Of a stretch of 64,000 nucleotides of DNA, positions 3,801 to 64,000 are shown one piece after another. The DNA is from Flavobacteriaceae bacterium CG2_30_31_66. GTDB lineage: Bacteria > Bacteroidota > Bacteroidia > Flavobacteriales > Flavobacteriaceae. The notes under the pieces are model-generated. The model worked only from the letters and a program-made list of their open reading frames with translations. It searched no databases and had not been told where the DNA came from. Within the stretch, counting starts at the first letter, position 1. Every line of letters starts with the position of its first letter. The position numbers and the translations under genes are program-made. The stretch spans positions 26,805 through 90,804 of the forward strand of contig MNYM01000005.1 in assembly GCA_001873065.1 (NCBI GenBank). The letters are read 5' to 3'.

Positions 3801-4355
3801 ATTGATTCTTATATTAGGATCAGGATTTTGTTTTGGAAAAAGTGCAATATTGTAAAGGTCATTATTTTTTTGTTCTAATTCTTCAACATATTTGCTTTTT
3901 GAATCAAGTAAAGCTTTTAAATCATGATTGTTTATCTCAGCATTTTTCAGTAAACTTAAAAGATTTACATGAAAATTAGTTTTTAAGAAATTGTCATCAG
4001 CAATGGTTTGATTTTTAAAATATTCAAAAGTGTCAAATATTGGGGAACCTAGAAAAAGCATTTCATCTGATTGCTCCATGAATTCAAACTGACCACGAAA
4101 TTGAATTTTAGCATTAACAATAGATTTGATAAAAACCAACTGACTTTGTAATTGAAATAATTCGGCAAAAGTTTGAAATCCTTTGGAAAAAGACGAAACC
4201 GAAAAAATATTTTGAAAACTTATTCCTGTTTTAAAATCTCCAAATTTTAAAATTGATTTTCCCAAATCAGTAATAATCAAATCTCTATTAATTTTGATGA
4301 AAAAAGGGAAAATCCTTTCGAACTGTTGGCTATTAAAATAGAAATGATTCGACAT
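873..4355 (-). CDS. Hybrid sensor histidine kinase/response regulator with N-terminal HNOBA-like domain, several PAS domains, HisKA, HATPase and C-terminal REC
   Basis: H-box 'NFLANMSHEIRTPMNAIMGMSRQ', N-box 'ILLNVISNAIKFT', G-boxes 'VVDTGIGM'/'GGTGLGMSI', REC 'KILVVDDNLLNRM...LVLMDIQMPVLNG...LSKPF'; repeated PAS motifs (e.g. 'VNKSFEKLTGFSLEEVKG'). Confidence 0.93.
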   Translation of the reverse strand: MSNHFYFNSQQFERIFPFFIKINRDLIITDLGKSILKFGDFKTGISFQNIFSVSSFSKGFQTFAELFQLQSQLVFIKSIVNAKIQFRGQFEFMEQSDEMLFLGSPIFDTFEYFKNQTIADDNFLKTNFHVNLLSLLKNAEINNHDLKALLDSKSKYVEELEQKNNDLYNIALFPKQNPDPNIRINYEGDVLQNNPAASNLDFIDYDGKTFRNDIFFKHIVEGIDKESKRWSFEAGSNKIDYSFDCVAMPQDGYINIYGRDITQQKINQKELEKLSLIVQQTMNAVIITNADGNIDWVNKSFEKLTGFSLEEVKGIRPGFFLQGKDTNKETVQYMKAQIKKCEPFTCEILNYKKSGEMYWLRINGQPIFDSKGNLTNFFAIEEDITLEKQSQEKIKAASSRMYSLISNLQSGILLENDSQKIEFVNDRFCEMFNIPITPEQMIGFDFSKMAQESKHLFSDPENFENNINALIKNKSLVIGEQLTLINGNILERSFIPIWNEGNYEGHLWMYSDITEKITANKKMEDLRIFYEKILDNIPSDIAVFDKEHHYLYVNPTGIKDAETRNWIIGKRDEDYIQMRGKSPLIFEKRRKLFNDIIQSKQLKSWEEELKQLDGTSKFILRNMYPLLNNQNEVDLVIGYGVDITDIKLIQQQKEDSEKKYKEIIDNSLAIITTHDMDGKFLNANPMIKKIFGYTDEEFIGHYLTDFMIEEDKKVFNINYLDKIKIKKEATGIFRVLHKDGHIVYTLYNNYLKEELGKEPYVIGFAVDISKRILVEKELKKAKKVTEELANAKHNFLANMSHEIRTPMNAIMGMSRQLSKSKLTEEQKSYLDNITNASENLLVIINDVLDLAKLEAGKLSIEKIGFELKIVIKRALQVMMHKAEEKGIELINTFFDSKIHPILLGDPFRINQILLNVISNAIKFTAVGGVKISCSVLKDEKSHQEIEIKVVDTGIGMEKEFLNNLFQKFSQEYKTIAKNYGGTGLGMSITKSLLDNMNGKIIVESEKNKGTEMMIRIRFEKGTAKDLPKKDNQFISVKNLKGKKILVVDDNLLNRMVATFILKEYEVQFAEAGDGLEAINFLKNNECDLVLMDIQMPVLNGIMATKAIREELKLNIPIIALTANAIKGEKEKCLEAGMSDYLSKPFEEEQFLHKISFWVEH

Positions 4356-4409
4356 GTTTTAACAATTTACTTTGACCAATAAATAAGTTTTTTTATTTTA
4401 ATTTTTATA

Positions 4410-5549
4410 TTAATCTTCATAAAATGAAGTAATAGTCATGGTTTGGTTGTGCAATTGGCAACTTCCACCATCATTAAAAGGAGAAATTTCTCCATAAGAA
4501 TAAAATCCTGCTAGCAGAGTTTCGTCATTAAAAGAGCTACTTACAGCGGCTACTTCTTCGGAAGTTTGAGAACCAAGAATAAGTTTTCTTCCAACACAAC
4601 TTATCAATAATGAAAAAACAGGTTTGTCATGACGATTTATAGTAGTTTGGATTGCTGCACCCGAAGCTGCTTCTTTTATGTTTTTAAAGTTAGCCTTCAT
4701 AAATCTTACTTCAGATCCTACAGGAACGTCACCAGCAAAAGTCATGGTTTTGTCTTCTTCATTTATAGACAATATTGTGCGCACAATAGGTTTTGTAGCT
4801 CCAGGAATAATCACTGATAATGGATATAAAAGTGCAGCGCCAGGAAGATTTTTAGACTCAGAACCTAAATATTTTTTATACAACTCTAAGGCATTTTGCC
4901 CTTCTAACTCGTACAAAACATTCCCAGATGAATTGGTGACTCTTTTTTCTAAACCAAAAATATCCCAACCACCTTGAGAACCATTGGTTACTATCAAGTT
5001 TTTTCCATAAAATCCAATTGCAATAATTTCCCCTTCTTTTGGCTGCTCATTTAAACCTAATAAAGTAGATTTAAAATCTGTTCCATCACCGGCAAGACCA
5101 CCAGTTACCAAAATATTTTTATCAATTTGAGTTGATAATCCTTTCACAAGTTCACTTCCGTTTACCATACTTCCATCTGAAAAAATCATCACATAAGTCA
5201 GATTTTCTTTTGGAATTTTTTTTGCCAAACCTATAGCCGCACTATAACTATTACTGTAATCTTTGACATTTACTCTTGAGGTTTCAATAGCTGTTTTTTG
5301 AAAATCAAAGGCAACAGCTATTAATGATTCATTAAAAACACTGTCTTGATAAATTTCTCCTGCAGTACTGCAAAAAGCGATTTGTGAAGTTGGAAATTTT
5401 GATTGAACTGTTGCATAAATATTATCGACTCGCAACATTGAGTTGGAACCAAAACACAACACCAAGTTTACTGAGTTTTCGTCAACTAATTGACTTTTTG
5501 AATGTTTAGACCATTTGTTCTCTAAAAAATGGTAAAGAGCTGTCTTCAT
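4410..5549 (-). CDS. FIST N/FIST C domain sensory protein
   Basis: 'VLCFGSNSMLRVDNIYATVQSKFPTSQIAFCSTAGEI', 'VTGGLAGDGTDF', C-terminal 'LAGFYSYGEISPFNDGGSCQLHNQTMTITSFYED' typical of FIST proteins. Confidence 0.88.
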   Translation of the reverse strand: MKTALYHFLENKWSKHSKSQLVDENSVNLVLCFGSNSMLRVDNIYATVQSKFPTSQIAFCSTAGEIYQDSVFNESLIAVAFDFQKTAIETSRVNVKDYSNSYSAAIGLAKKIPKENLTYVMIFSDGSMVNGSELVKGLSTQIDKNILVTGGLAGDGTDFKSTLLGLNEQPKEGEIIAIGFYGKNLIVTNGSQGGWDIFGLEKRVTNSSGNVLYELEGQNALELYKKYLGSESKNLPGAALLYPLSVIIPGATKPIVRTILSINEEDKTMTFAGDVPVGSEVRFMKANFKNIKEAASGAAIQTTINRHDKPVFSLLISCVGRKLILGSQTSEEVAAVSSSFNDETLLAGFYSYGEISPFNDGGSCQLHNQTMTITSFYED

Positions 5550-5983
5550 GAAATTATATAATAAGGTCTTAATAATTGAAAACTCAAATTTTATTTAAAA
5601 TCTAACGAAAAAATAAGGTACTTAAAAAATAATTTGTTGCGTTTAAAAATTTTTTTTCACTTCAAAAAAAATTTCAAAAAGTAGTAAACTTGGGGAAATA
5701 TTTATCGATATGACAAAAAAATAACTATATAAATTATTTTTCAATAACCAATGCAAGATAAACAATATTTTTAAAATTAAATAGCTTTTACTTTTCATAT
5801 TTTTAACGTTATTTTTATGAATCGCTATTAAAAAAATAACTTTTGAAAAAAAATCATCATAAGTGTTTTACACCAAAAAAAGAAACAATAGAAAATGAAT
5901 AAACTTTGAAAAAAAAATATTAAGAAATATCTAAGAAATATATTGTATATTTATGCTTGAAATTAACCTTAAAAGAATTTATA

Positions 5984-7312
5984 ATGAAAGTTACAATCGT
6001 TGGAAGTGGATATGTAGGACTTGTTACAGGTGCTTGTTTTTCTGAAGTTGGTATTGATGTTATTTGTGTTGACATTGATGCAAAAAAAATTGAAAATTTA
6101 AATAACGGCATTATACCTATTTACGAACCTGGTCTTGAGGAGATGATCATCCGTAATATGAAAAAAGGACGTTTGAATTTTACGACCAATATTTCTGGTG
6201 CTGTGAAAGAATCGGAAGTGGTTTTTATCTCAGTAGGAACTCCACCAGATGAAGATGGAAGTGCTGATTTAAAATATGTATTAGCAGTTGCAAGAGAATG
6301 TGGTAAAAATATGGACGATTACCTATTAATAGTCACAAAAAGCACGGTTCCTGTTGGTACTTCAATAAAAGTAAAAAAAGCGATTCAAGAAGAACTAGAC
6401 AAGCGAAATGTTGATATCCCATTTGATGTTGCTTCTAATCCTGAGTTTTTGAAAGAAGGTGCTGCCATCGCAGACTTTTTAAAACCTGACAGAATTGTGA
6501 TAGGTCTTGATTCGCCGAGAGCCGAGGACTTAATGAGAAGTTTATACAAACCATTTACTATGAATGGTCATCCAGTTATTTTTATGGACATTGTTTCTGC
6601 TGAAATGACAAAATATGCCGCAAACGCAATGCTTGCGACAAAAATTAGTTTTATCAATGACATTGCCAATCTTTGCGAAATAGTTGGCGCTGACATTAAT
6701 TGGGTAAGAAAAGGAATTGGCTCTGATACAAGAATTGGTTCTAAATTTATTTATCCAGGCATTGGTTATGGAGGTTCTTGTTTTCCAAAAGATGTTCAAG
6801 CATTGATAAGAACCGGAAATGATTACGATTATCAACTAAGAATCTTGAAAGCTGTTGAAGAAGTTAACAAAGATCAAAAAGAGATTATTTTCAATAAAAT
6901 AAATACCTATTTTAAAGGAGATTTAAAAGATAAGACCGTTGCAATTTGGGGACTTTCTTTCAAACCTCAAACTGATGATATGAGAGAAGCACCTGCATTA
7001 ATTGTTATTAAAAGGCTATTAGACGCTGGCGCAAAAGTAAATGTTTATGATCCTGTTGCAATGAAAGAAGCCAAACATCATTTTGGCGAAACTGTTTCTT
7101 ATTTTGAAGACCAATATGAAACTTTAATTGATGCTGATTGTTTAGCAATACTTACTGAATGGGCTGAGTTTAAAATTCCAAATTTCAAAATTATTCATAA
7201 ATTATTGAGCAATCCTGTGATTTTTGATGGACGAAATATTTATGACAAAGATGAAATGAAAGACAATGGATTTAATTATCATTGTATTGGTGTTGATACA
7301 TCAAAAAAATAA
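5984..7312 (+). CDS. UDP-glucose 6-dehydrogenase (start set at internal ATG 5984)
   Basis: '[23 protein letters not shown]', '[24 protein letters not shown]', '[17 protein letters not shown]' catalytic Cys motif. Confidence 0.96.
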
Positions 7313-7354
7313 TTGAACTCAAATAAAATTTAATTACCCAAACTTATAAAAAAT

Positions 7355-8296
7355 ATGAAAACCTCTAAAAAGATTCTTGTTACAGGTGGTGCTGGTTTTG
7401 TTGGCTCACATCTTTGTGAACGATTGTTAAATGAAGGAAATGAAGTGTATTGCCTTGACAATTTTTTCACAGGACAAAAGAAAAATGTATTGCATTTGTT
7501 GGACAATCCTTTTTTCGAATTGATAAGACACGATGTTACAACCCCTTTTTTTATTGAAGCAGACGAAATTTATAACCTTGCATGTCCTGCATCTCCAATT
7601 CATTACCAACACAATCCCATCAAAACAGTAAAAACCTCTGTGATGGGCGCAGTAAATATGCTGGGACTTGCAAAAAGAATCAATGCAAAAATATTGCAAG
7701 CCTCAACAAGTGAAGTTTATGGAGATCCACTTGAGCATCCACAAAAAGAATCTTATTGGGGAAATGTGAACCCAATTGGCGAACGCTCTTGTTACGATGA
7801 AGGAAAACGCTGTGCAGAAACTTTGTTTATTGATTATCACAAACAAAATAAAGTAAAAATTAAAATCATCAGAATTTTCAATACTTATGGACCAAGAATG
7901 CATCCAAATGACGGAAGAGTTGTTTCTAACTTCATTGTTCAAGCATTAAAAAACCATGATATTACTGTTTATGGCGAAGGCCAACAAACCAGAAGCTTTC
8001 AATATGTTGATGATTTAGTTGAGGGAATGATTAGAATGATGGCTTCACCCAATCATTTTATAGGGCCTGTAAACATGGGAAATCCGAATGAATTCACGAT
8101 TCTTGAATTGGCAGAAAAAGTAATAAAACTTACTGGCTCAAAATCTAAAATCGTTTACAAACCAGCTCCTTCTGATGATCCAATGATGCGTCAACCAGAT
8201 ATTTCTATTGCAAAAAAAGAATTAGATTGGGCTCCAAAAATAGAATTAGAGGAAGGTTTGATTAAAACTATTGAATTTTTTAAGTCTATCATTTAA
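7355..8296 (+). CDS. UDP-glucuronate decarboxylase / NAD-dependent epimerase (SDR)
   Basis: '[19 protein letters not shown]', '[12 protein letters not shown]', '[10 protein letters not shown]' extended SDR signatures of UXS. Confidence 0.93.
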
Positions 8297-8360
8297 AAAA
8301 ACTTCAAAAGATTTTTTATCATCAAATAAAAAATTTAAACTTAAAGTAAATCTTAAAAAA

Positions 8361-8723
8361 ATGAGTGATAACATCCCCCAAGAAAAACTGTATGATCTTC
8401 AAATAATACATCAAATGTGTCGTGGAAACCATGATCAAGTAGAAAAGATGGTAGCGGTTTTTATAATCGAAGTTTCAAAAACTATTGGAGATATTGAAAG
8501 TGCACTTTCAGAAAAAGATTTTTCAAGAATCAAAAATTTAGCTCACAAAGTGAAACCAACACTCAATTATTTTGGTACAGTTTCGCTTGAAAAAGAAGTT
8601 ATTGAAGTAGAATCTTTATTGTCTAAAGATTTTAATATCAACGAACTACAATCAAAAATAGCCACAATAAGCGACATTTCAAAAAAGGTAGTTGACCAAT
8701 TAAAATCACATTTTAACTTATAA
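8361..8723 (+). CDS. HPt domain phosphotransfer protein (ATG at 8361 preferred over track start 8271, which overlaps the upstream gene)
   Basis: 'IKNLAHKVKPTLNYFG' HxxK HPt motif in about 120 aa single-domain protein. Confidence 0.85.
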   Translation: MSDNIPQEKLYDLQIIHQMCRGNHDQVEKMVAVFIIEVSKTIGDIESALSEKDFSRIKNLAHKVKPTLNYFGTVSLEKEVIEVESLLSKDFNINELQSKIATISDISKKVVDQLKSHFNL

Positions 8724-8742
8724 ATTATAAATCTTTAAATTT

Positions 8743-9129
8743 ATGAAGAAAAAAATATTAATAGTAGATGACGAAAAAAGTATTTGTCTTTTATTAGAAA
8801 ATTTTCTGGCACAAGATTATGAAGTTGTCTCATTTAATGATGGTATTGAAGGATTGGTATGGCTTGAAAAAAATCTCCCTGATTTAATTATCAGTGATAT
8901 TCAAATGCCAAATATGGATGGTTATGAGTTTTTGACAAGCGTTCGTCAAAAAGGTTTTACGAAACACACTCCTGTTATCATGTTATCAGGAAAATCTGAA
9001 AGTAAAGAGCGTATAAAATGTTATAGACTTGGTGCGCAAGATTACTTAACGAAACCATTTAATCCTGAAGAACTTGAAGAGTTAGTAAAGAAAAACATGT
9101 TTCCAATTCACTTTGCAATAGAATGGTAA
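8743..9129 (+). CDS. Single-domain response regulator
   Basis: 'ILIVDDEKS...DLIISDIQMPNMDG...VIMLSGKS...DYLTKPFNPEEL' full REC active site. Confidence 0.95.
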   Translation: MKKKILIVDDEKSICLLLENFLAQDYEVVSFNDGIEGLVWLEKNLPDLIISDIQMPNMDGYEFLTSVRQKGFTKHTPVIMLSGKSESKERIKCYRLGAQDYLTKPFNPEELEELVKKNMFPIHFAIEW

Positions 9130-9172
9130 TGAATTGATAGTCAATTTTTAAAATAACCATACACAAGCTAAA

Positions 9173-10375
9173 ATGACAAACCCTACTCTTACAATAATGT
9201 ATATTGGCAAAACATCATCGTATTTTGAGAATATCAAAATACGAAATGAAATCTCGCTAGTTTCAATGGAAAATAGCATTGCCGCCACAAATTACCTCAA
9301 TGAAAATAAATCACCAGATGCCATTATTTGCGAATATAATTTGGCAGGAAATAATGGGTTATTTTTTTTTGATTGGATTAAAAAGCAAGAAAAATTTCAT
9401 GGAGTGCCATTTATCTTGTTGACCAAAGAATTTAGTATTGATGTTTATAAACTCTCTTTCACACAATCTGTTGACGATTATTATGCTACTTCGGTCACAA
9501 AACCTGAGGATATTATAAACAGAATTGAATTTTTCAATAAGTACATAAAAAATAATATTAAAATAAATACTCCAAGAGACAAAGAAGAAATTTTTAAAAT
9601 GCCACTTTCAAAAAGAATTTTTGACATTTTTGTAGCCTCATTTGTACTTTTGGTTGCTTCTCCTTTTTTACTATTGATACTACTTGCAATAAAATTAGAA
9701 TCAAAAGGAAAAGTATATTACATCTCAAAAAGAGTTGGCAGAAAAACATTTGATTTTTATAAACTAAGATCAATGAGAACAGGCTCTGATGAACTTCTTA
9801 AAAAATTAGCTGCAGAAAAAAATCAATACAACACCCAACCTAAAGCTAACGAAAACATTTTTGATATGCCTTGCCCAAGATGCAGCAAATTAACAATAGG
9901 AGAAACTTGTTCGCCATTGATGTATATTGAAAATCATCAAATTTGTGACTATTGGTACAATCATCAAAAAAATGAAGCCGCAAATAATAGTGCCACATTT
10001 GTAAAAATTGTAAATGATCCACGAGTTACAAGAGTTGGAAAATTCATCAGAAATACAAGTATTGATGAATTGCCTCAACTTATCAATGTTTTAAAAGGCG
10101 ATATGTCTATTGTTGGCAACAGACCATTACCAGTTTATGAAGCTGAATTGTTAACTGCAGACGCTTTATCAAACCGATTTTTAGCTCCAGCAGGAATCAC
10201 AGGCTTATGGCAAGTAGAGCTGAGAGGGAAAGGAGGAAACATGTCCGAAGAAGAAAGAATTAGATTAGACAACGAATATGCAGAGCATTTTAAGGGTGAT
10301 AATTATTCATTTTGGTACGATATGAAACTTATTTTGAGAACCATTCCTGCTTTGCTTCAAAAAGATTCTGTTTAA
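9173..10375 (+). CDS. Pseudo-receiver domain fused to polyprenyl-phosphate sugar transferase (initiating glycosyltransferase)
   Basis: N-terminal REC-like fold pattern without acidic pair; C-terminal 'KRIFDIFVASFVLLVASPFLLLILLAIKLESKGKVYYISKRVGRKTFDFYKLRSMRTG', 'TSIDELPQLINVLKGDMSIVGNRPLP' (bacterial sugar transferase). Confidence 0.9.
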   Translation: MTNPTLTIMYIGKTSSYFENIKIRNEISLVSMENSIAATNYLNENKSPDAIICEYNLAGNNGLFFFDWIKKQEKFHGVPFILLTKEFSIDVYKLSFTQSVDDYYATSVTKPEDIINRIEFFNKYIKNNIKINTPRDKEEIFKMPLSKRIFDIFVASFVLLVASPFLLLILLAIKLESKGKVYYISKRVGRKTFDFYKLRSMRTGSDELLKKLAAEKNQYNTQPKANENIFDMPCPRCSKLTIGETCSPLMYIENHQICDYWYNHQKNEAANNSATFVKIVNDPRVTRVGKFIRNTSIDELPQLINVLKGDMSIVGNRPLPVYEAELLTADALSNRFLAPAGITGLWQVELRGKGGNMSEEERIRLDNEYAEHFKGDNYSFWYDMKLILRTIPALLQKDSV

Positions 10376-10398
10376 TAAAAAATTGAGACCAGAAAAAC

Positions 10399-11142
10399 AT
10401 GAAATTAAGCTTAAAATGTATAGTAATTGTTGTGATAAATTTTTGTTGCAACTGTTATTTATCCGCACAAAATACCCCAATTGAAAAAGTTATCGCAATA
10501 AAAAGTAAAATAAATATTCCTCCTTTGAACGTTATTATTGATTCTGTCTTAAAAAATAACGCAATGCTTAAATTCCGAAAACAAGGGATAGGTGTAAAAG
10601 AATCAACACTAGAGTCAGAGAAAATTTATTGGACAAGAAATTTGGGTATTCAAGCAGAAACGAGATATGGAACTTTAAATAGCTTTTCAACAAGTGCTGA
10701 CGGAAATTCAACAGCCGCTTTTGCAACAACTGCCACTCAATTTAATTATAGTGCGGGAATATATTTGAAGTTTCCCGTTTTTGATTTTTTGAACAGAAAA
10801 AAGCAAATAACGCTTGCAAGACTTGAAATTGAACAAGCAATAAGTATTGAGCAATCTTTAAAAGATGAAATAAGACAAAATGTGATAAAATTATATCATG
10901 ATTTACTATTAAAACAAAGAATACTTCAAATACGATCTGAAAGTTTGGGAAGTGGACGAGTTAATATGCAAATGGCTGAAAAAGAATTTAGAAATGGAGT
11001 CATTCAAGTCACAGAATATGCTCGAATTTCTGGAATTACTTCAAATTTAGAGGCAGATTATGAATTCGCAAAGTCAGAATTTATCATCGCTAAAAGTATC
11101 TTAGAAGACATGGCAGGATTTAATTTTGGCATCACTAATTGA
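10399..11142 (+). CDS. TolC-like outer membrane efflux family protein, short form
   Basis: Signal peptide, 'VKESTLESEKIYWTRNLGIQAETRYG', coiled-coil OEP-like 'ARLEIEQAISIEQSLKDEIRQNVIKLYHDLLLKQRIL'; about half of normal OEP length. Confidence 0.7.
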   Translation: MKLSLKCIVIVVINFCCNCYLSAQNTPIEKVIAIKSKINIPPLNVIIDSVLKNNAMLKFRKQGIGVKESTLESEKIYWTRNLGIQAETRYGTLNSFSTSADGNSTAAFATTATQFNYSAGIYLKFPVFDFLNRKKQITLARLEIEQAISIEQSLKDEIRQNVIKLYHDLLLKQRILQIRSESLGSGRVNMQMAEKEFRNGVIQVTEYARISGITSNLEADYEFAKSEFIIAKSILEDMAGFNFGITN

Positions 11143-11149
11143 AAAAAAA

Positions 11150-13537
11150 ATGAATATTATTGAATTTTTAAGACTCATTATAAAGCATTTAAGGCTGTTG
11201 ATTATTGCGCCTTTTTTGCTTGCTATTTTGGTTATAATGCTCACGATGAAACCTAGTTTTAAATATTCATCCCAAACCATTTTATATACAGGTCTTGCAA
11301 CAGGCAGCTCTATTGAAATGGAAAAAACGTTTAATTATTTTGCCACAAATTCTGCTTTTGACAATTTAATTAACATCATAAATTCAAGAGAAACCCAAGA
11401 AGAAGTTGCCATCAGATTGTTAACGCAACATTTAATGCTTCCTGGGGCAAATCCAAAGTATATATCAAAAAAATTATATGACGAATTTAAAATAAAAATT
11501 CCGAGTCACATTTACAATTACATCGAAAAAGATGAGATTACTGATGTTTCAAAAAAAGATTCAATCGAAAACTATTATAAGAAAAAACCACTATTTCCCA
11601 GAGAAATAAATCCTATTAATTATGAAAAAACAGTTAAAAATTTGACAGTTTTAATGAGAAGTAGCAATGATAATTTTATTTATGAAATACTCAATTATGA
11701 AGATGACCATTATTCTTTGAAAGAATTATCAACCATAAGTGCCACTAGAATCAATTCAAGTGATTTGGTAAAAATGAGTTACACCACAAACGACCCAGGA
11801 ATTTGCCAACAAACATTGGCAATTTATAATGAAGTTTGCATCAAAAATTATAAAAATATCAAAGAAAATAGGTCTGATGCTGTTGTCAAATATTTTGAAG
11901 AACAACTCGTAGAAGCCAATAAAAAACTTAAAATCGCAGAAGATAAATTATTAGAATTCAATAAATCCTACAATATCATCAATTACTATGAGCAAAGTAA
12001 AGCTGTTGCAGTAGTAAAGGAAGATATGGAAGTAGATTATAATAATAAAAAAGCAAAATTGGCTGGAACGATTGCAGCAACAAAAAAAATTGAAGAAAAA
12101 CTAGAAATCCAGAAAAAAATTCAAATTTTAAACAATGAGGTTTTAGATAAAAAGAAAAAACTGGGCAATTTGAACTACGAAATTGCAATTAATGAAACAA
12201 TGTTAACTTCGGATAAAAACCAAACAATTGCCAAAGAATTAATTGCATTAAAAAGTGAAAGAGAAAAACTAACGGACGATATTCAACAACAAGTTAATCA
12301 AATATATCAATTTGAAAATTCTATTGAAGGCATTCAAAGAGGAAAAGCACTCCCTGAATGGTTAGATAATGTGATTGAAACCGAAAATTTGAAAGCAAGT
12401 ATTGGCGTGATGGATAAACGCAACAAAGATTTCAAAGAGCAATATTCCATTTATGCTCCTGCTGGGGCAAATATCAAAAGAATTGAACGCGAAATTTCGG
12501 TTTCAGAACAAGGCTATTTAGAAATTTTACATGGATTAAACTTAGCCAAACTGAAACTCCAAGACAACGAATTATCATCCAATTTAAAAACAATTGATGC
12601 ACCATACTATCCATTATCTCCAATTCCAGGAAAAAGAAAAATTCTTGTTGTGGCTGCTCTGTTTTTAGGAACTATATTAATTTTAGCTATCATTTTATTA
12701 ATGGAATTTTTTGACAACACGCTGAAAAATTCAGAAAAAGCAACAAAAAAATTAGGGTTAAAATCATTGGGAATGATTCCGAAAATTTTATTAAATCCTG
12801 GAAATATGAATTTTCAATTTATTCAAAATAGATTAATAGAAATCATCACTCAAAATATCAAACAATTTATAAATACACATTCAACAGCAAATGAGGTTAA
12901 AACCATAACTATTTTTAGTACTCAAAAAATGGAAGGAAAAACAGTTTTAGCTGGTAATATTTTAAAAATTTTAAAAAAAGAAGGAAAAAAAGTACTATTT
13001 TTAACCTATTCTGAAAAACAAAAAGCTTTATTTCAATCAAAAAAATCTCCAATAATTAATAAAATTTTTGGTTATCCTGATCCACGAGTTGATGTTGATA
13101 ACATTTTTTTGGCTGACGTTTCATCTTATCTTGAAAATCGAGAAATCAGAATCTATAATTTGAATGAACAATTTGATAAAGTGTCAAATTATACTGATAT
13201 TTTAGAACAAAGTAATTTAAAAATTGATTATATCCCTGATTATGTGATGATTGAGTTACCTGCAATGATTTATAATAATTATCCAACAACTTTGATTAGC
13301 AATGCCGACTTTAATATTTTGACTTGTAGATCAAATAGAACTTGGGCAGAAGCAGACAAAACAATTCTCGAAAATTTGTTGCAATTATCCCCTTCAAAAA
13401 TTAATTTTATTTTGAATGGTGTAAATATCAACGAAATTGAGGCTGTTCTTGGTGATCTTCCTAAAAAAAGAAGTACCATTAGAAAAAAAATAAAATCTAT
13501 ATTTAAGTTTCAATTTTTTTCTAAAAATCAAATTTAA
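11150..13537 (+). CDS. Wzz/Wzc-like exopolysaccharide chain-length/export protein with degenerate BY-kinase-like domain
   Basis: Two TM segments flanking long coiled coil, 'PYYPLSPIPGKRKILVVAALFLG' PCP motif, 'FSTQKMEGKTVLAGNIL' P-loop-like; ATG 11150 preferred. Confidence 0.85.
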   Translation: MNIIEFLRLIIKHLRLLIIAPFLLAILVIMLTMKPSFKYSSQTILYTGLATGSSIEMEKTFNYFATNSAFDNLINIINSRETQEEVAIRLLTQHLMLPGANPKYISKKLYDEFKIKIPSHIYNYIEKDEITDVSKKDSIENYYKKKPLFPREINPINYEKTVKNLTVLMRSSNDNFIYEILNYEDDHYSLKELSTISATRINSSDLVKMSYTTNDPGICQQTLAIYNEVCIKNYKNIKENRSDAVVKYFEEQLVEANKKLKIAEDKLLEFNKSYNIINYYEQSKAVAVVKEDMEVDYNNKKAKLAGTIAATKKIEEKLEIQKKIQILNNEVLDKKKKLGNLNYEIAINETMLTSDKNQTIAKELIALKSEREKLTDDIQQQVNQIYQFENSIEGIQRGKALPEWLDNVIETENLKASIGVMDKRNKDFKEQYSIYAPAGANIKRIEREISVSEQGYLEILHGLNLAKLKLQDNELSSNLKTIDAPYYPLSPIPGKRKILVVAALFLGTILILAIILLMEFFDNTLKNSEKATKKLGLKSLGMIPKILLNPGNMNFQFIQNRLIEIITQNIKQFINTHSTANEVKTITIFSTQKMEGKTVLAGNILKILKKEGKKVLFLTYSEKQKALFQSKKSPIINKIFGYPDPRVDVDNIFLADVSSYLENREIRIYNLNEQFDKVSNYTDILEQSNLKIDYIPDYVMIELPAMIYNNYPTTLISNADFNILTCRSNRTWAEADKTILENLLQLSPSKINFILNGVNINEIEAVLGDLPKKRSTIRKKIKSIFKFQFFSKNQI

Positions 13538-57736: not shown

Positions 57737-58177
57737 ATGAGTTTTCAAGTAACCTTTTCTACAAAATGGGCTGATTTTGACCCAAATAAACACATGCGTC
57801 ACACAGCCTATAACGATTATGCTGCAGAAGTAAGAGTTCGATTTTTTAAAAAAAACAACTTTACGATGGACGATTTTAATAGATTGAATTTAGGTCCGAT
57901 TTTGTTTTCAGAAGAAACCTATTTCAAAAAAGAGATTTTAATGGGTGAAGATATTACCGTTAATCTCAAATTGGCTGGACTTTCAAAAAACAACGAACGT
58001 TGGAAATTTACGCATGAAGTTTTTAATGAAGCAGGAAAATTATCCGCAACTATTAAAGTTTATGGTGCTTGGATTGATTTAACGAAACGCAAACTCACAA
58101 TTCCGCCAATAGAGACCTCAAACTTATTTACAGATATCGAAAAATCAGTGGATTTTGAAGAGATTTTGGTGAAATAG
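57737..58177 (+). CDS. Acyl-CoA thioesterase (4HBT-like)
   Basis: 'KWADFDPNKHMRHTAYNDYAAEVRVRFF' hot-dog thioesterase motif. Confidence 0.9.
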   Translation: MSFQVTFSTKWADFDPNKHMRHTAYNDYAAEVRVRFFKKNNFTMDDFNRLNLGPILFSEETYFKKEILMGEDITVNLKLAGLSKNNERWKFTHEVFNEAGKLSATIKVYGAWIDLTKRKLTIPPIETSNLFTDIEKSVDFEEILVK

Positions 58178-58204
58178 CCGACTACGAATTAATACACGAC
58201 TTTA

Positions 58205-58239
58205 CAAAAAAAACCACCCCTTAAATAATTAAGAGGTGG
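58205..58239 (-). terminator. Terminator-like hairpin with minus-strand T-run (orphan)
   Basis: Minus strand CCACCTCTTAA-TTAT-TTAAGGGGTGG followed by TTTTTTTT. Confidence 0.6.
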
Positions 58240-58856
58240 AAAATTGCTATGAAAAAGACAGAATGTCTTCGTTTCAAATATTTAAAAAATTAGAATACCA
58301 CAACCTCTTTTTATCAATATTTTTTACTCTTTTTTAAATTAGAATCAGTATTGCTAATAGTAATTTACTTATGTTTTACTATTAAACAGCATTGAATTTG
58401 TTTATGTTTAGGTCAATTAAACCATTTCTAAGAGGTTTTTTTGAAGTAACCTAACCAATTTGTGGTATTTAAGATTTTAATGCAATATAATGCGTTAAAA
58501 CGCTTTTTTAAGTAATCGCAATAGAATCAAGGGTTTACAAGGATTTTGTTTTATAAAGTATTGTTTATTAGATGATTGTGTTTTTGCTGATTCCTGCTAA
58601 AAATCGCAAAAAAGGTCAATTTGTTGAAAACTTCAAGGTTTTTGTGAATAAGTATCACTTTATTTATAAAGGAATAAGTTGCAATTTTACAAAGTAAATA
58701 TATAGTGACAATGAAGGAAGCTATGAAACTTTAAAAATGTCATTGAGCAGGCTAACGAACAGTTAGAAAAAACAGAGCAATGCATTTCTATAAATTGTGA
58801 ATAAGCCATCCCCCTTTTTTTATAGTAGTTAAATACTAGCTCTCTATATTTACAGC

Positions 58857-58896
58857 ATAAAAAAAAGCCTTAAAATTGGACCTTTAAGACTTTTTA
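58857..58896. terminator. Bidirectional terminator-like hairpin (orphan)
   Basis: AAAAAGCCTTAAA-ATTGGACC-TTTAAGACTTTTT; on the minus strand ends in TTTTTTTT. Confidence 0.55.
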
Positions 58897-59221
58897 GGTA
58901 ACACTTTGAGAAGTGTATTTGTTTTCACAAAGCAATATTACGACTCTATTCAAAGCTTACCAAAATTTATTTACAATTGTTAATAAAAAAACGGCTATCC
59001 AAGCTGTGACGGTAAAAGCTTATGAAATAGTTTCAACAAATTGAATGCGGCAAACAGTTCAAATTTAAAAAACGGTTTGTATAGAGTATCACGAAAAATC
59101 GTTCGTCTTACTGCCATATCCGGCAACATTCTTCCGAAAACGTAGAGATAAGTGTCGTTCACCAAACTCTATAACATCAAGGTGATTTTATATTTTAAAA
59201 ATTAAAAAAAATAATAAATTT

Positions 59222-59608
59222 ATGGTAAGAATTATACCTATAAGTAAGAGTAACCCGCAAGATACAACAGCGGTTAACAAGTTTTACGCGCAAGCAGTAG
59301 CAACCGGTAAAACAGATTTAGAACGATTGGCATACCTAGTATCCAATCAAAGTACAGTTAGAGAAGGCGATTGTTATGCCGTCATCTTGTCATTGGTGCA
59401 CAACATCATTGACGAGTTAAAGCAAGGACGTATTGTGAAACTTGATAAATTAGGGTCTTTCCAAATTGGTGTTAGCTCAGAGGGAGTTGCCAGCATTGAG
59501 GAAGTAGGGAGTAATCTTGTCAAAGACGTGCGTGTCAATTTTAGACCTGACCAGCGATTGAAAGACGGTATCAACATGACTACCGTTTCTTTTACCAAAG
59601 GCAGTTAA
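59222..59608 (+). CDS. HU-like (HU_rel/HU-HIG type) DNA-binding protein
   Basis: 'TDLERLAYLVSNQSTVREGDCYAVILSLVHNIIDELKQGRIVKLDKLGSFQIGVSSEGV...VKDVRVNFRPDQRLKDGI'. Confidence 0.9.
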   Translation: MVRIIPISKSNPQDTTAVNKFYAQAVATGKTDLERLAYLVSNQSTVREGDCYAVILSLVHNIIDELKQGRIVKLDKLGSFQIGVSSEGVASIEEVGSNLVKDVRVNFRPDQRLKDGINMTTVSFTKGS

Positions 59609-59646
59609 ATAGCCGTCTTTTTACAAACGAGTATTTTATGAACGAA

Positions 59647-59678
59647 AACCTCAACAGCCTTGCTGTTGGGGTTTTTTA
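59647..59678 (+). terminator. Intrinsic terminator after HU-like gene
   Basis: ACCTCAACAGC-CTT-GCTGTTGGGGT-TTTTT. Confidence 0.88.
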
Positions 59679-59700
59679 TTTGCCCTTTTTTTTGATGAAT

Positions 59701-59780
59701 TTGCAGCACTGCTCTTAAGAATTTGCTCAGTAGCTTTGTGTTCATTGCATTGCAGCAACACAGGCATTGCAGCACTGCAA
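59701..59780. repeat. Short repeats of TTGCAGCACTGC
   Basis: Exact TTGCAGCACTGC at 59701-59712 and 59767-59778, related ATTGCAGCAAC between them. Confidence 0.6.
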
Positions 59781-59830
59781 CCAAATGAAAGCTGTGCAGT
59801 AATTTTTTATTGCTGCGCTGGTTTTTTTAA

Positions 59831-59953
59831 AGACCCATTTTGGGGCATTAAGTGGGTGTATTTTACCTAAAAAAAGACCCCAAACCTACTCTTTTAAAGC
59901 CCACAAAACGGCTTAAAGTTATGCACAAAAAACACCCATTTTTAGGCTAAAAA
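59831..59953. repeat. Cluster of nested short inverted repeats
   Basis: TTTGGGG 59839-59845 / CCCCAAA 59878-59884; TGGGTGT 59853-59859 / ACACCCA 59932-59938; TTTTTAG-G-CTAAAAA 59939-59953. Confidence 0.6.
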
Positions 59954-60202
59954 GTGGCTTACAATGACCTAAAACGAGACTTTTTTGGTAGTATTTGCCC
60001 TCCAAAATGCTCCTAAACCGAGTAAAAATGATAGTGAATTTGACTTTTTTTAGGGGATTTTTCCGGTATTTGGTATTGGGTTGCAGAGGGTGTTGGTTTT
60101 ATTTGTATTTTGGGAGCTGTATATGGGTTTTATATTTTTTATAAATGTTATATAAACTTGAGCATATATAGTAGTTGTAGCAAATACTAAAAAACAAACT
60201 TG

Positions 60203-62260
60203 ATGACATTACCACATAATTCAACAAATCTCAGAAACAGAGTAAAAAAACTTTATTTACCCAAGACAAAAGCTCTATATCCATTATTTGAGGTAATAAG
60301 TAATTCAATACACGCTATTCAAGAACATCAAATTTTACAACCTGATTTCAAAGGAGAAATTAAGATAATTGCAATTCGTAACGGAAATGTCGAAACTTTA
60401 AGAAAAATTTCAAACATTGAAGAATATCCAATAAATTCATTTGAAATTATCGATAATGGTATTGGATTAAATGAGGAAAACATTAAATCCTTCTCAGAAT
60501 TTGATTCTGAAAAAAAATCAGAAATTAGAGGAAAAGGGGTAGGAAGACTTATATGTTTAAAAGCTTTTAAAAAACTATCTGTAGAGAGTATATATCAAAG
60601 TGGCTTTACATACAAAATGTTGCGATTTGACTACAAAAAATCTAAAGAAGGATTCGATAATTTTGAGGATAATTTAACCACCCCAAAAACTAAAACTGGA
60701 ACAAAAGTAATATTAGAAAATTATGAAGATAATTATGACAAATATGTTCCTAAATCTTTAAAAGAAATAGCAAGACAAATTATTACTCATTTTCAATTGT
60801 ATTTTATTCAAAAAATTGAACCCGAAATAATTATTACTAACCAAGATGATGTAGAAATAAATTTAAACAATTTATTTTTAAAAGATTTTGAGAAAGAAAT
60901 ACAGGAAGATTCTTTTGAAATCTCAAATCAAGTTTTCAAAATATTTATTTCAAAATCTCATAAAGTAAAAAGTCATAAATTGCATTATTGTGCTCACGAA
61001 AGAACAGTGAAAGATGAAGGGTTATCTAAATACTTAATAGACTTAAATAATAAGATTAGTGTAGAAAATCAAGATGGGTATTTTTTTCAAGTTTTCGTTA
61101 TTGGAGACTTCTTAAATAAAAATGTAAACGAGTCTAGAACTAGTTTTAATTTCACATTAGAAGAAGATGAAGAAGAAATAGATTTAAAAGAAATTACATT
61201 ATCTAAAATTAGAAAACAAACAATTTTAAGCATAGAAAAACTTTTAAACGATTTTCTCAAAAAAGTTAGAGAAGAAAAACTAGAAGTCTATTTTCCCATT
61301 ATTGAAGAAGAATACCCAAATTATCACAGTGTAATTCATTACAACAGAGATAAAATAGAAAAGCTTCCTGCAGATTTATCAAAACAGGAATTGGATTTAA
61401 AATTATACGAAATTGAAAGCGATTGGAGGATTGAGGTTAAAACTAAAGGAATTGAATTAATAGATAAGAAAAAAGATATAACAAATTTAGAGGAATATAA
61501 AAATCTTTATAGCGACTTTCTTACTCAATTCAATGAAATTGGTCAATCAGATTTAACTAGATATGTCATACACAGACGAGCCGTAATCGACTTATTAGAT
61601 AAATTAATAGAACTAAATGAATTAGAAAAATTTGCAAATGAAGATATCGTTCATAGCCTTTTTTATCCAATAAAAGAAACTGGTAAGACAGTAACTACTG
61701 AAAAGCAAAACCTTTGGTTACTAGATGAAAGACTTACTTACAATTCGCTACTTGCGTCTGACAAATTATTTCAACATATTGAAGAAATAGATTCTAATTC
61801 CCCTAAACGTTCTGATATTATTATCAAAAAAGAAGAAGTTTTTGAAAACGCTACTTTATTTTCTGAAGACAATTACCCTTTTGAGTCTTTTACAATAGTT
61901 GAATTCAAAAAACCTGAAAGAGATAATTATAAACACGGAACTTATAAAGATGACCCAATAAAACAAGTAAGAACATATATAGAGGAAATTATAGAGGGAA
62001 ACCAAAAAGTAAAAGGAAAAAGAATTGAAGCTAATAAATTAACTCCTTTTTATTGCTATATAGTTGCAGATAAAACACCAAGTCTTGAAAAGATTTTAAA
62101 ATACGAGGGATTTGACCCAACTCCTGATGGTCTAGGTTCATTTAAATTTTATAATACAGAAACGTCTAGAGCTTATATTGAAGTTCTTCCTTTTAAAAAA
62201 ATAATTAAAGACTCTAAACAAAGGAATAAAATTTTATTTGACAAACTAAAAATGAGCTAG
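60203..62260 (+). CDS. GHKL (MORC/Hsp90-like) ATPase with probable C-terminal PD-(D/E)XK nuclease domain; candidate defence protein
   Basis: GHKL motifs 'FEVISNSIHAIQEH', 'FEIIDNGIGLNEENIKSF', 'RGKGVGRLICLKAF'; C-terminal 'PKRSDIIIKKEE...FTIVEFKKPERDNYK' (D...ExK); ATG 60203. Confidence 0.82.
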   Translation: MTLPHNSTNLRNRVKKLYLPKTKALYPLFEVISNSIHAIQEHQILQPDFKGEIKIIAIRNGNVETLRKISNIEEYPINSFEIIDNGIGLNEENIKSFSEFDSEKKSEIRGKGVGRLICLKAFKKLSVESIYQSGFTYKMLRFDYKKSKEGFDNFEDNLTTPKTKTGTKVILENYEDNYDKYVPKSLKEIARQIITHFQLYFIQKIEPEIIITNQDDVEINLNNLFLKDFEKEIQEDSFEISNQVFKIFISKSHKVKSHKLHYCAHERTVKDEGLSKYLIDLNNKISVENQDGYFFQVFVIGDFLNKNVNESRTSFNFTLEEDEEEIDLKEITLSKIRKQTILSIEKLLNDFLKKVREEKLEVYFPIIEEEYPNYHSVIHYNRDKIEKLPADLSKQELDLKLYEIESDWRIEVKTKGIELIDKKKDITNLEEYKNLYSDFLTQFNEIGQSDLTRYVIHRRAVIDLLDKLIELNELEKFANEDIVHSLFYPIKETGKTVTTEKQNLWLLDERLTYNSLLASDKLFQHIEEIDSNSPKRSDIIIKKEEVFENATLFSEDNYPFESFTIVEFKKPERDNYKHGTYKDDPIKQVRTYIEEIIEGNQKVKGKRIEANKLTPFYCYIVADKTPSLEKILKYEGFDPTPDGLGSFKFYNTETSRAYIEVLPFKKIIKDSKQRNKILFDKLKMS

Positions 62261-62425: not shown

Positions 62426-64000
62426 ATGAAATCAACCGAAATAAAACATAATGTTCAGAACCTCATTGACAATTTCTCGAAAGAAGAATTTGTCTTTGAT
62501 TTGTTGGTTGCCTACGGTATTTCTAAAACATCTGTAACTCGACTTAAAAAAGGAGATTACAATTTATCTAAGGTTGACGGAGAAATCCTTTACAAAAAGA
62601 AGATTTTCTTTAAAGTTGAAGCATCTGACAAACTGCTGAGTAGCATTGAGGATGTTTCTAAAGAAGAACGCATTTTAAAACAACAACCTAGATTTGCAAT
62701 TCTCACCGACCATAAACAAATTGTTGCTAAAGATTTAAAACTAGGCAAGAATTTAGACATACAATTAAAAGAGCTGCCCAACTATTTTGATTTCTTTTTG
62801 CCCTTAGCAGGTAGCGAAGTTTACAATGCTACCAACAACAATGAAGCCGACAGAGACGCTTCGTACAAAATGGCATCTTTATATGATTTGTTGATTGATG
62901 AAAACCCGAAAATTTACAATTCAAAAGAAAGCATTCATAATCTCAATATTTTCTTATCTCGTTTGCTTTTTTGCTTTTTTGCAGAAGATACCGAAATATT
63001 TCAGCAAGAAAGTATTTTTACCAATACACTGGCTCAACATACTGCCGAAAACGGCAAAGATACGCATGCTTTTTTAGATGATTTGTTCGACCGTTTAGAC
63101 ACTGAAAATGTAGAACATCTGCCTGAGTATCTCAGAAAGTTTGAATACGTAAACGGGGGCTTGTTTAACCAAAAAATAAACTCCCCACTATTTAATGCTA
63201 AGGCTAGAAAAACCCTTATTGAGCTTGGTGGATTGCAGTGGAAACATATCAATCCAGATATTTTTGGGTCTATGATACAAGCGGTGGTAATTCCTGAATA
63301 CCGTAGCGATTTAGGAATGCATTACACTTCCGTTGAAAACATCTTAAAACTCATAAAACCATTATTTCTTGATGAATTGTATGAAGCTTATGAAAACGCT
63401 ACAACCAATAACCAATTAAGAGCGCTCATCACAAGAATTTCGAAAATCAAATTCCTTGACCCGGCTTGTGGTAGCGGAAATTTCTTGATTATCACCTACA
63501 AAGAAATACGCTTACTAGAAATACTCATTTTAGAAAAAATTACGGATTTAGAGGGTAATGCCCCAACCATAAAATGGACTGACATACAACTTTCACAATT
63601 TTACGGTATTGAAATAGACGATTTTGCCCACGAAATGGCAATACTTTCACTATGGTTGGCAGAACACCAAATGAACAAAGTGTTTGAAGAACGCTTGTTT
63701 GATTACGGAAAATCGAAACCAATTCTTCCCTTAAAAGAAGCAGGACAAATAAAACAAGGCAATGCTACCAGAGTAGATTGGAATGCCGTATGTCCAATTT
63801 CTTCAACAGATGCCCGCACTGAGCTTAGCCGAAGTGAAGTGTATGTAATTGGAAATCCGCCTTATTTGGGAGCTCGTTTGCAAGATGCTGAGCAGAAAAA
63901 AGATATGAGAATTGTATTCAGCGGAAAGAATGGATACAATAATATGGATTACATTTCTTGTTGGTTCTTCAAAGCAAAAGGCTATATAAAAGGATTTAAT
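62426..64000 (+). CDS. MmeI-like / type IIG-style class I SAM-dependent DNA methyltransferase (3' truncated by window edge; absent from ORF track)
   Basis: Open frame of 525 codons from ATG 62426 to window end: 'MKSTEIKHNVQNLIDNFSKEEFVFDLLVAYGISKTSVTRLKKGDYNLSK...', 'IFGSMIQAVVIPEYRSDLGMHYTSVENILKLIKPLFLDEL', motif I 'KFLDPACGSGNFLIITYKEIR', 'FYGIEIDDFAHEMAILSLWLAEHQMN', motif IV 'VIGNPPYLG'. Confidence 0.9.
   Translation, partial: MKSTEIKHNVQNLIDNFSKEEFVFDLLVAYGISKTSVTRLKKGDYNLSKVDGEILYKKKIFFKVEASDKLLSSIEDVSKEERILKQQPRFAILTDHKQIVAKDLKLGKNLDIQLKELPNYFDFFLPLAGSEVYNATNNNEADRDASYKMASLYDLLIDENPKIYNSKESIHNLNIFLSRLLFCFFAEDTEIFQQESIFTNTLAQHTAENGKDTHAFLDDLFDRLDTENVEHLPEYLRKFEYVNGGLFNQKINSPLFNAKARKTLIELGGLQWKHINPDIFGSMIQAVVIPEYRSDLGMHYTSVENILKLIKPLFLDELYEAYENATTNNQLRALITRISKIKFLDPACGSGNFLIITYKEIRLLEILILEKITDLEGNAPTIKWTDIQLSQFYGIEIDDFAHEMAILSLWLAEHQMNKVFEERLFDYGKSKPILPLKEAGQIKQGNATRVDWNAVCPISSTDARTELSRSEVYVIGNPPYLGARLQDAEQKKDMRIVFSGKNGYNNMDYISCWFFKAKGYIKGFN

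Follow-up and report, generated by a model that had tools for sequence, protein, structure and literature searches.

The question raised by this locus is whether a gene encoding a GHKL ATPase fused to a nuclease-like domain forms an under-described two-gene defence system with the DNA methyltransferase gene beside it, as proposed in a first-pass annotation made from the sequence, or whether it belongs to a kind of defence gene that acts alone. In the window, by which is meant the whole 64,000-nucleotide stretch of DNA that was analysed, the gene (P0001) and the features assigned to its product are the following.

60203..62260, + strand: predicted GHKL-Shedu (paraMORC3-type) ATPase-nuclease gene P0001, an intact ORF of 685 aa with an ATG start and no internal stop.
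60290..60304, + strand: GHKL N-box, E30 to N34 in SNSIHAIQ, with E30 and N34 invariant in 73 sequences.
60452..60466, + strand: GHKL G1 box, D84-N-G86-I-G88, invariant in the 73-member alignment.
60527..60547, + strand: GHKL G2 box, G109 to R115, with G112, G114 and R115 invariant and G109 conserved in at least 90%.
60815..61663, + strand: S5/transducer-like middle domain and long helical region, residues 205-487 (Foldseek, secondary structure).
61670..62257, + strand: predicted C-terminal Shedu-type PD-(D/E)XK nuclease domain, residues 490-685 (hhalign to the SduA_C alignment).
61814..61909, + strand: nuclease core, D538...E567-x-K569, all three residues invariant in the 73 sequences.

The GHKL boxes named in the first-pass annotation ('SNSIHAIQ', 'DNGIGL' and 'GKGVGR') are all present, and their key residues are invariant in the 73 relatives. 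The C-terminal 'SDIII...FTIVEFKKPERD' is present as well, and its assignment to the D...ExK core of PD-(D/E)XK nucleases is borne out by the invariance of D538, E567 and K569 and by the profile comparison given below. Invariance across the 73 relatives indicates that the motifs of P0001 are not due to chance. E30 is presumably the general base, and E480 is also invariant in the 73-member alignment, giving the pattern E-D-ExK. Against Pfam, P0001 is matched by HATPase_c (E=1.4e-5) and HATPase_c_3 (E=6.3e-5), both of which narrowly miss the curated cut-offs. Pfam matches to TnpV and T3SS_CopN are sub-threshold noise and were discarded. Searches of PDB sequences with phmmer and hmmsearch returned no useful relative, and a promoter and terminator scan at the locus found sites no more numerous than in shuffled sequences.

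The AlphaFold2 model of P0001 has a mean pLDDT of 87.2 and a pTM of 0.71. In Foldseek comparisons the ATPase and middle region resembles the ATPase modules of Hsp90/TRAP1, SMCHD1 and GyrB with E values down to 5e-12, the alignments covering the GHKL and S5/transducer domains over ∼330–470 columns. The region of ∼250 aa that had been described as a linker is thus present, but in the model and the Foldseek comparisons it is a middle domain of the transducer type that leads into long helices. In the C-terminal part of the model, the D and the ExK occupy neighbouring strands, D538 being within 536-544 and E567-K569 closing 561-568, and helix 585-598 and strand 615-621 come next; as modelled, this is the usual PD-(D/E)XK order of strands and helices around D538...ExK. 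Structure prediction, which the first-pass annotation had suggested as a check, yields a nuclease-like C-terminal domain, with marginal support from Foldseek, for which the top three matches are all McrBC entries (E 0.025–0.046). McrC is a PD-(D/E)XK nuclease. No Shedu structure appears among the best 50 Foldseek matches of the C-terminal model; 8ti8 and 8ps4 are solved structures of classical Shedu SduA.

Comparison of residues 490-685 with the Shedu SduA_C alignment using hhalign gives P=3.3e-6 and a probability of 88%, with the D and the ExK in register. Control comparisons give P=0.83 for the N-terminal third of P0001, P=0.55 for its middle third, P=0.29 for McrC and P=0.26 for DnmA/MmeI, and the best of 30 column-shuffled Shedu alignments reaches P=0.05. 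At the level of sequence profiles these values argue that the C-terminal domain of P0001 is homologous to the SduA nuclease. The Pfam model SduA_C (PF14082/DUF4263) does not match P0001 and matches only one of the 73 members, at E=0.014; a Vibrio relative having the same architecture is likewise missed, indicating that the model is not sensitive for the GHKL-Shedu group. P0001 is also matched by no model of PADLOC 2.0.0 or NCBIfam 20.0.

An ATPase-nuclease fusion of this architecture has already been described and experimentally tested, as VcSduA. The paraMORC3 proteins were defined by GHKL and S5 domains followed by a C-terminal E-D-ExK restriction-fold domain, a subset of them being standalone genes in Proteobacteria and Bacteroidetes, and their function was predicted, not tested, in that work (Iyer, Abhiman & Aravind, 2008; PMC2292703). 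P0001 shares the GHKL domain, the S5/transducer region, the E-D-ExK C-terminus and the standalone gene, and no difference was found. VcSduA of the Vibrio cholerae WASA lineage, reported in 2025 as GHKL-Shedu, Shedu type I-D (PMC12137116), is likewise encoded by one gene and has an N-terminal GHKL domain, a clamp-like middle and a C-terminal Shedu-type PD-(D/E)XK domain. Its mutations E27A in the ATPase and K557A in the nuclease each abolish phage defence, and its hosts grow at all MOIs, fitting direct restriction (PMC12137116). The spacing of the catalytic residues, compared by position only, is equivalent (E27...K557 in VcSduA, E30...K569 in P0001), and two Vibrionaceae relatives of P0001 carry E27 and K556. 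P0001 differs from VcSduA in coming from another phylum, Bacteroidota, the nearest Vibrionaceae relatives found being 31% identical, and its placement in the VcSduA family is proposed from architecture, motif position and profile comparison. Classical Shedu SduA has a C-terminal nuclease domain related at the profile level to that of P0001, but its N-terminal domains are different ones, with no GHKL ATPase among them, and PF14082, which misses P0001, detects it.

P0001 is very probably a defence gene, and it can be assigned with considerable confidence to the GHKL-Shedu kind (paraMORC3; Shedu type I-D, VcSduA-like), as an anti-phage nuclease that acts alone. By analogy with Hsp90, MutL, GyrB and MORC, ATP binding would close an N-terminal GHKL dimer gate, so that a clamp forms around DNA; judging from relatives, the middle domain may relay gate closure to paired C-terminal nuclease domains, which would cut the trapped DNA of the invading phage without killing the host. 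DNA-end sensing has been reported for other Shedu types, as cited in PMC12409362, and GHKL-Shedu offers a diverse family for testing what the GHKL gate senses in Shedu. The weak Foldseek support for the nuclease fold would also suit a C-terminal domain whose PD-(D/E)XK-like fold is merely a generic one or is inactive, making P0001 a non-cutting DNA-binding ATPase or an abortive-infection effector, and there is a parallel in WonAB, another ATPase and PD-(D/E)xK defence pair, which halts translation instead of degrading DNA (PMC12137116). Such a role is highly improbable given the invariance of D538, E567 and K569 in the 73 relatives, the loss of VcSduA activity on mutation of the nuclease lysine, and the survival of VcSduA hosts noted above.

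The neighbouring gene has to be considered together with the operon to which it belongs. Its features in the window are as follows.

62426..64000, + strand: 5' part (524 codons) of a MmeI/DnmA-like adenine methyltransferase gene (Pfam MmeI_N, MmeI_hel and MmeI_Mtase).
63458..63484, + strand: methyltransferase SAM motif I, DPACGSGNF, invariant in 8 homologues.
63854..63865, + strand: methyltransferase catalytic motif IV, NPPY (N6-adenine type), with NPP invariant in 8 homologues.

The encoded P0002 (METHYLTRANSFERASE) comprises the N-terminal 524 aa of an MmeI homologue (MmeI_Mtase E=1e-69) and is incomplete, contig C24 stopping exactly at window position 64000. Orthologues in the same genus are 900 aa long, that of genome G015 being 81% identical, and in 5/5 same-genus windows the orthologue is the first gene of an operon that also encodes an SF2 helicase and a T5orf172 protein; in two of the five, the methyltransferase and helicase genes are separated by one or two additional genes. 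Another contig of the same genome as P0001, C35, opens inside a helicase gene (residues 206-653, G000:C35:1-1350) whose product shares 92% identity with its G015 counterpart; a T5orf172 gene, 79% identical to that of G015, follows it (G000:C35:1-2548 overall). The earlier statement that no helicase is visible therefore reflects the end of the contig, and is corrected by the helicase remainder on C35. We infer from operon order that a DnmA-YeeB-YeeC-type operon is split between C24 and C35, with a gap of ∼1.75 kb as sized from the G015 operon. A search of the genome with the MmeI_C and MmeI_TRD profiles did not find the remainder of the methyltransferase, consistent with its falling in this gap. 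The DnmA-YeeB-YeeC cluster is known from B. subtilis and Vibrio crassostreae; DnmA is an MmeI homologue without a nuclease motif, and the B. subtilis cluster did not protect against the phages with which it was challenged (PMC9973331). The order of an MmeI homologue without a nuclease motif, an SF2 helicase and a T5orf172/GIY-YIG protein matches the neighbouring operon and not P0001. The methyltransferase probably belongs to a separate modification/restriction system, so that the locus brings together two systems of known kinds as neighbours.

This bears on the proposed partnership, in which the GHKL nuclease would supply the restriction activity for the MmeI-like methyltransferase in a two- or four-gene system, with methylation state directing cleavage. 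The two genes are on the same strand and 165 bp apart, P0002 has no visible ExK in its N-terminal domain, and in the Alphaproteobacteria Mesorhizobium (L057) and Devosia (L058) methyltransferase, helicase, T5orf172 and GHKL-Shedu genes run in one direction (∼3900–12037), with ∼35 bp before the GHKL-Shedu gene and the same layout in both. Such a system is nevertheless very unlikely: an MmeI-like gene is near only 3/133 GHKL-Shedu relatives, in the reverse check a GHKL gene adjoins 0/24 other Bacteroidota MmeI/DnmA loci, the GHKL gene is absent from 5/5 same-genus operon windows, the methyltransferase operon has a helicase and a nuclease of its own, and the two other Bacteroidota genomes with both genes carry them on separate contigs. 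The neighbourhood survey that the first-pass annotation had suggested thus finds that GHKL and methyltransferase genes are not conserved as neighbours. The idea of an under-described two-gene layout is not supported, the fusion itself had been described and tested before (PMC12137116), and a false lead, a helicase-less GHKL and methyltransferase system, is removed. It is very unlikely that GHKL-Shedu was recruited as an extra DnmA-YeeB-YeeC effector, its ATP-gated clamp sensing either methylation state or translocation by the helicase; the instances would be the window, L057/L058 and L112, the identical layout of L057 and L058 perhaps representing one event.

The same surroundings might suggest that P0001 is a prokaryotic protein of the MORC type serving in a restriction-modification operon that includes a helicase, as it has GHKL and S5 domains and, in its own genome, methyltransferase and helicase genes nearby. 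This assignment is extremely improbable, as the C-terminal E-D-ExK nuclease domain marks paraMORC3 and not MORC (PMC2292703), and no helicase is a conserved neighbour among 132 GHKL-Shedu loci. Type I M/S genes are the most frequent neighbours, found at ∼10/132 loci, and no neighbour recurs more often; others include CBASS, type I restriction, SIR2-ATPase, AbiE, classical Shedu, integrases and insertion sequences. An alignment query of genome contigs recovered at least 550 relatives of P0001 from many phyla; a single-sequence query of the same contigs recovered none. Relatives occur on 56 plasmids, 41 IMG/VR contigs and one phage, and 9/396 sampled Bacteroidota genomes (∼2%, the genome carrying P0001 counted) have GHKL-Shedu. 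GHKL-Shedu is a mobile standalone family without a conserved partner. A validated defence architecture is therefore common yet missed by PF14082, PADLOC 2.0.0 and NCBIfam 20.0, and hundreds of loci, prophage-borne copies included, would be annotated by a profile made from the 73 aligned sequences.

The flanks of the island were compared with empty sites in the same genus. The S41 peptidase and thioesterase genes to its left are conserved in 8/8 same-genus genomes, and the GHKL gene and operon are absent within ∼10 kb beyond them in all eight. The conserved block stops at window position 58177; the right flank of the island was not found in these eight genomes. Just left of the defence genes, two stretches of ∼1.0 and ∼0.6 kb (58180-59221 and 59609-60199) contain no sizeable ORF, and a small HU-like gene (59222-59608) sits between them.

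Three loci among the relatives have features of their own. In same-genus genome G014 (L178:7861-9729) a GHKL-Shedu gene has decayed into three ORF pieces. On Vibrio fluvialis plasmid NZ_AP028130.1 (L141:8613-12007) a type I restriction operon is followed by a classical Shedu gene and a GHKL-Shedu gene that overlap by 4 bases and are possibly a translationally coupled Shedu pair. In phage vB_RanS_PJN03 (L019:2485-4509) the phage-borne GHKL-Shedu gene adjoins an integrase and is annotated as an N-acetylmuramoyl-L-alanine amidase.
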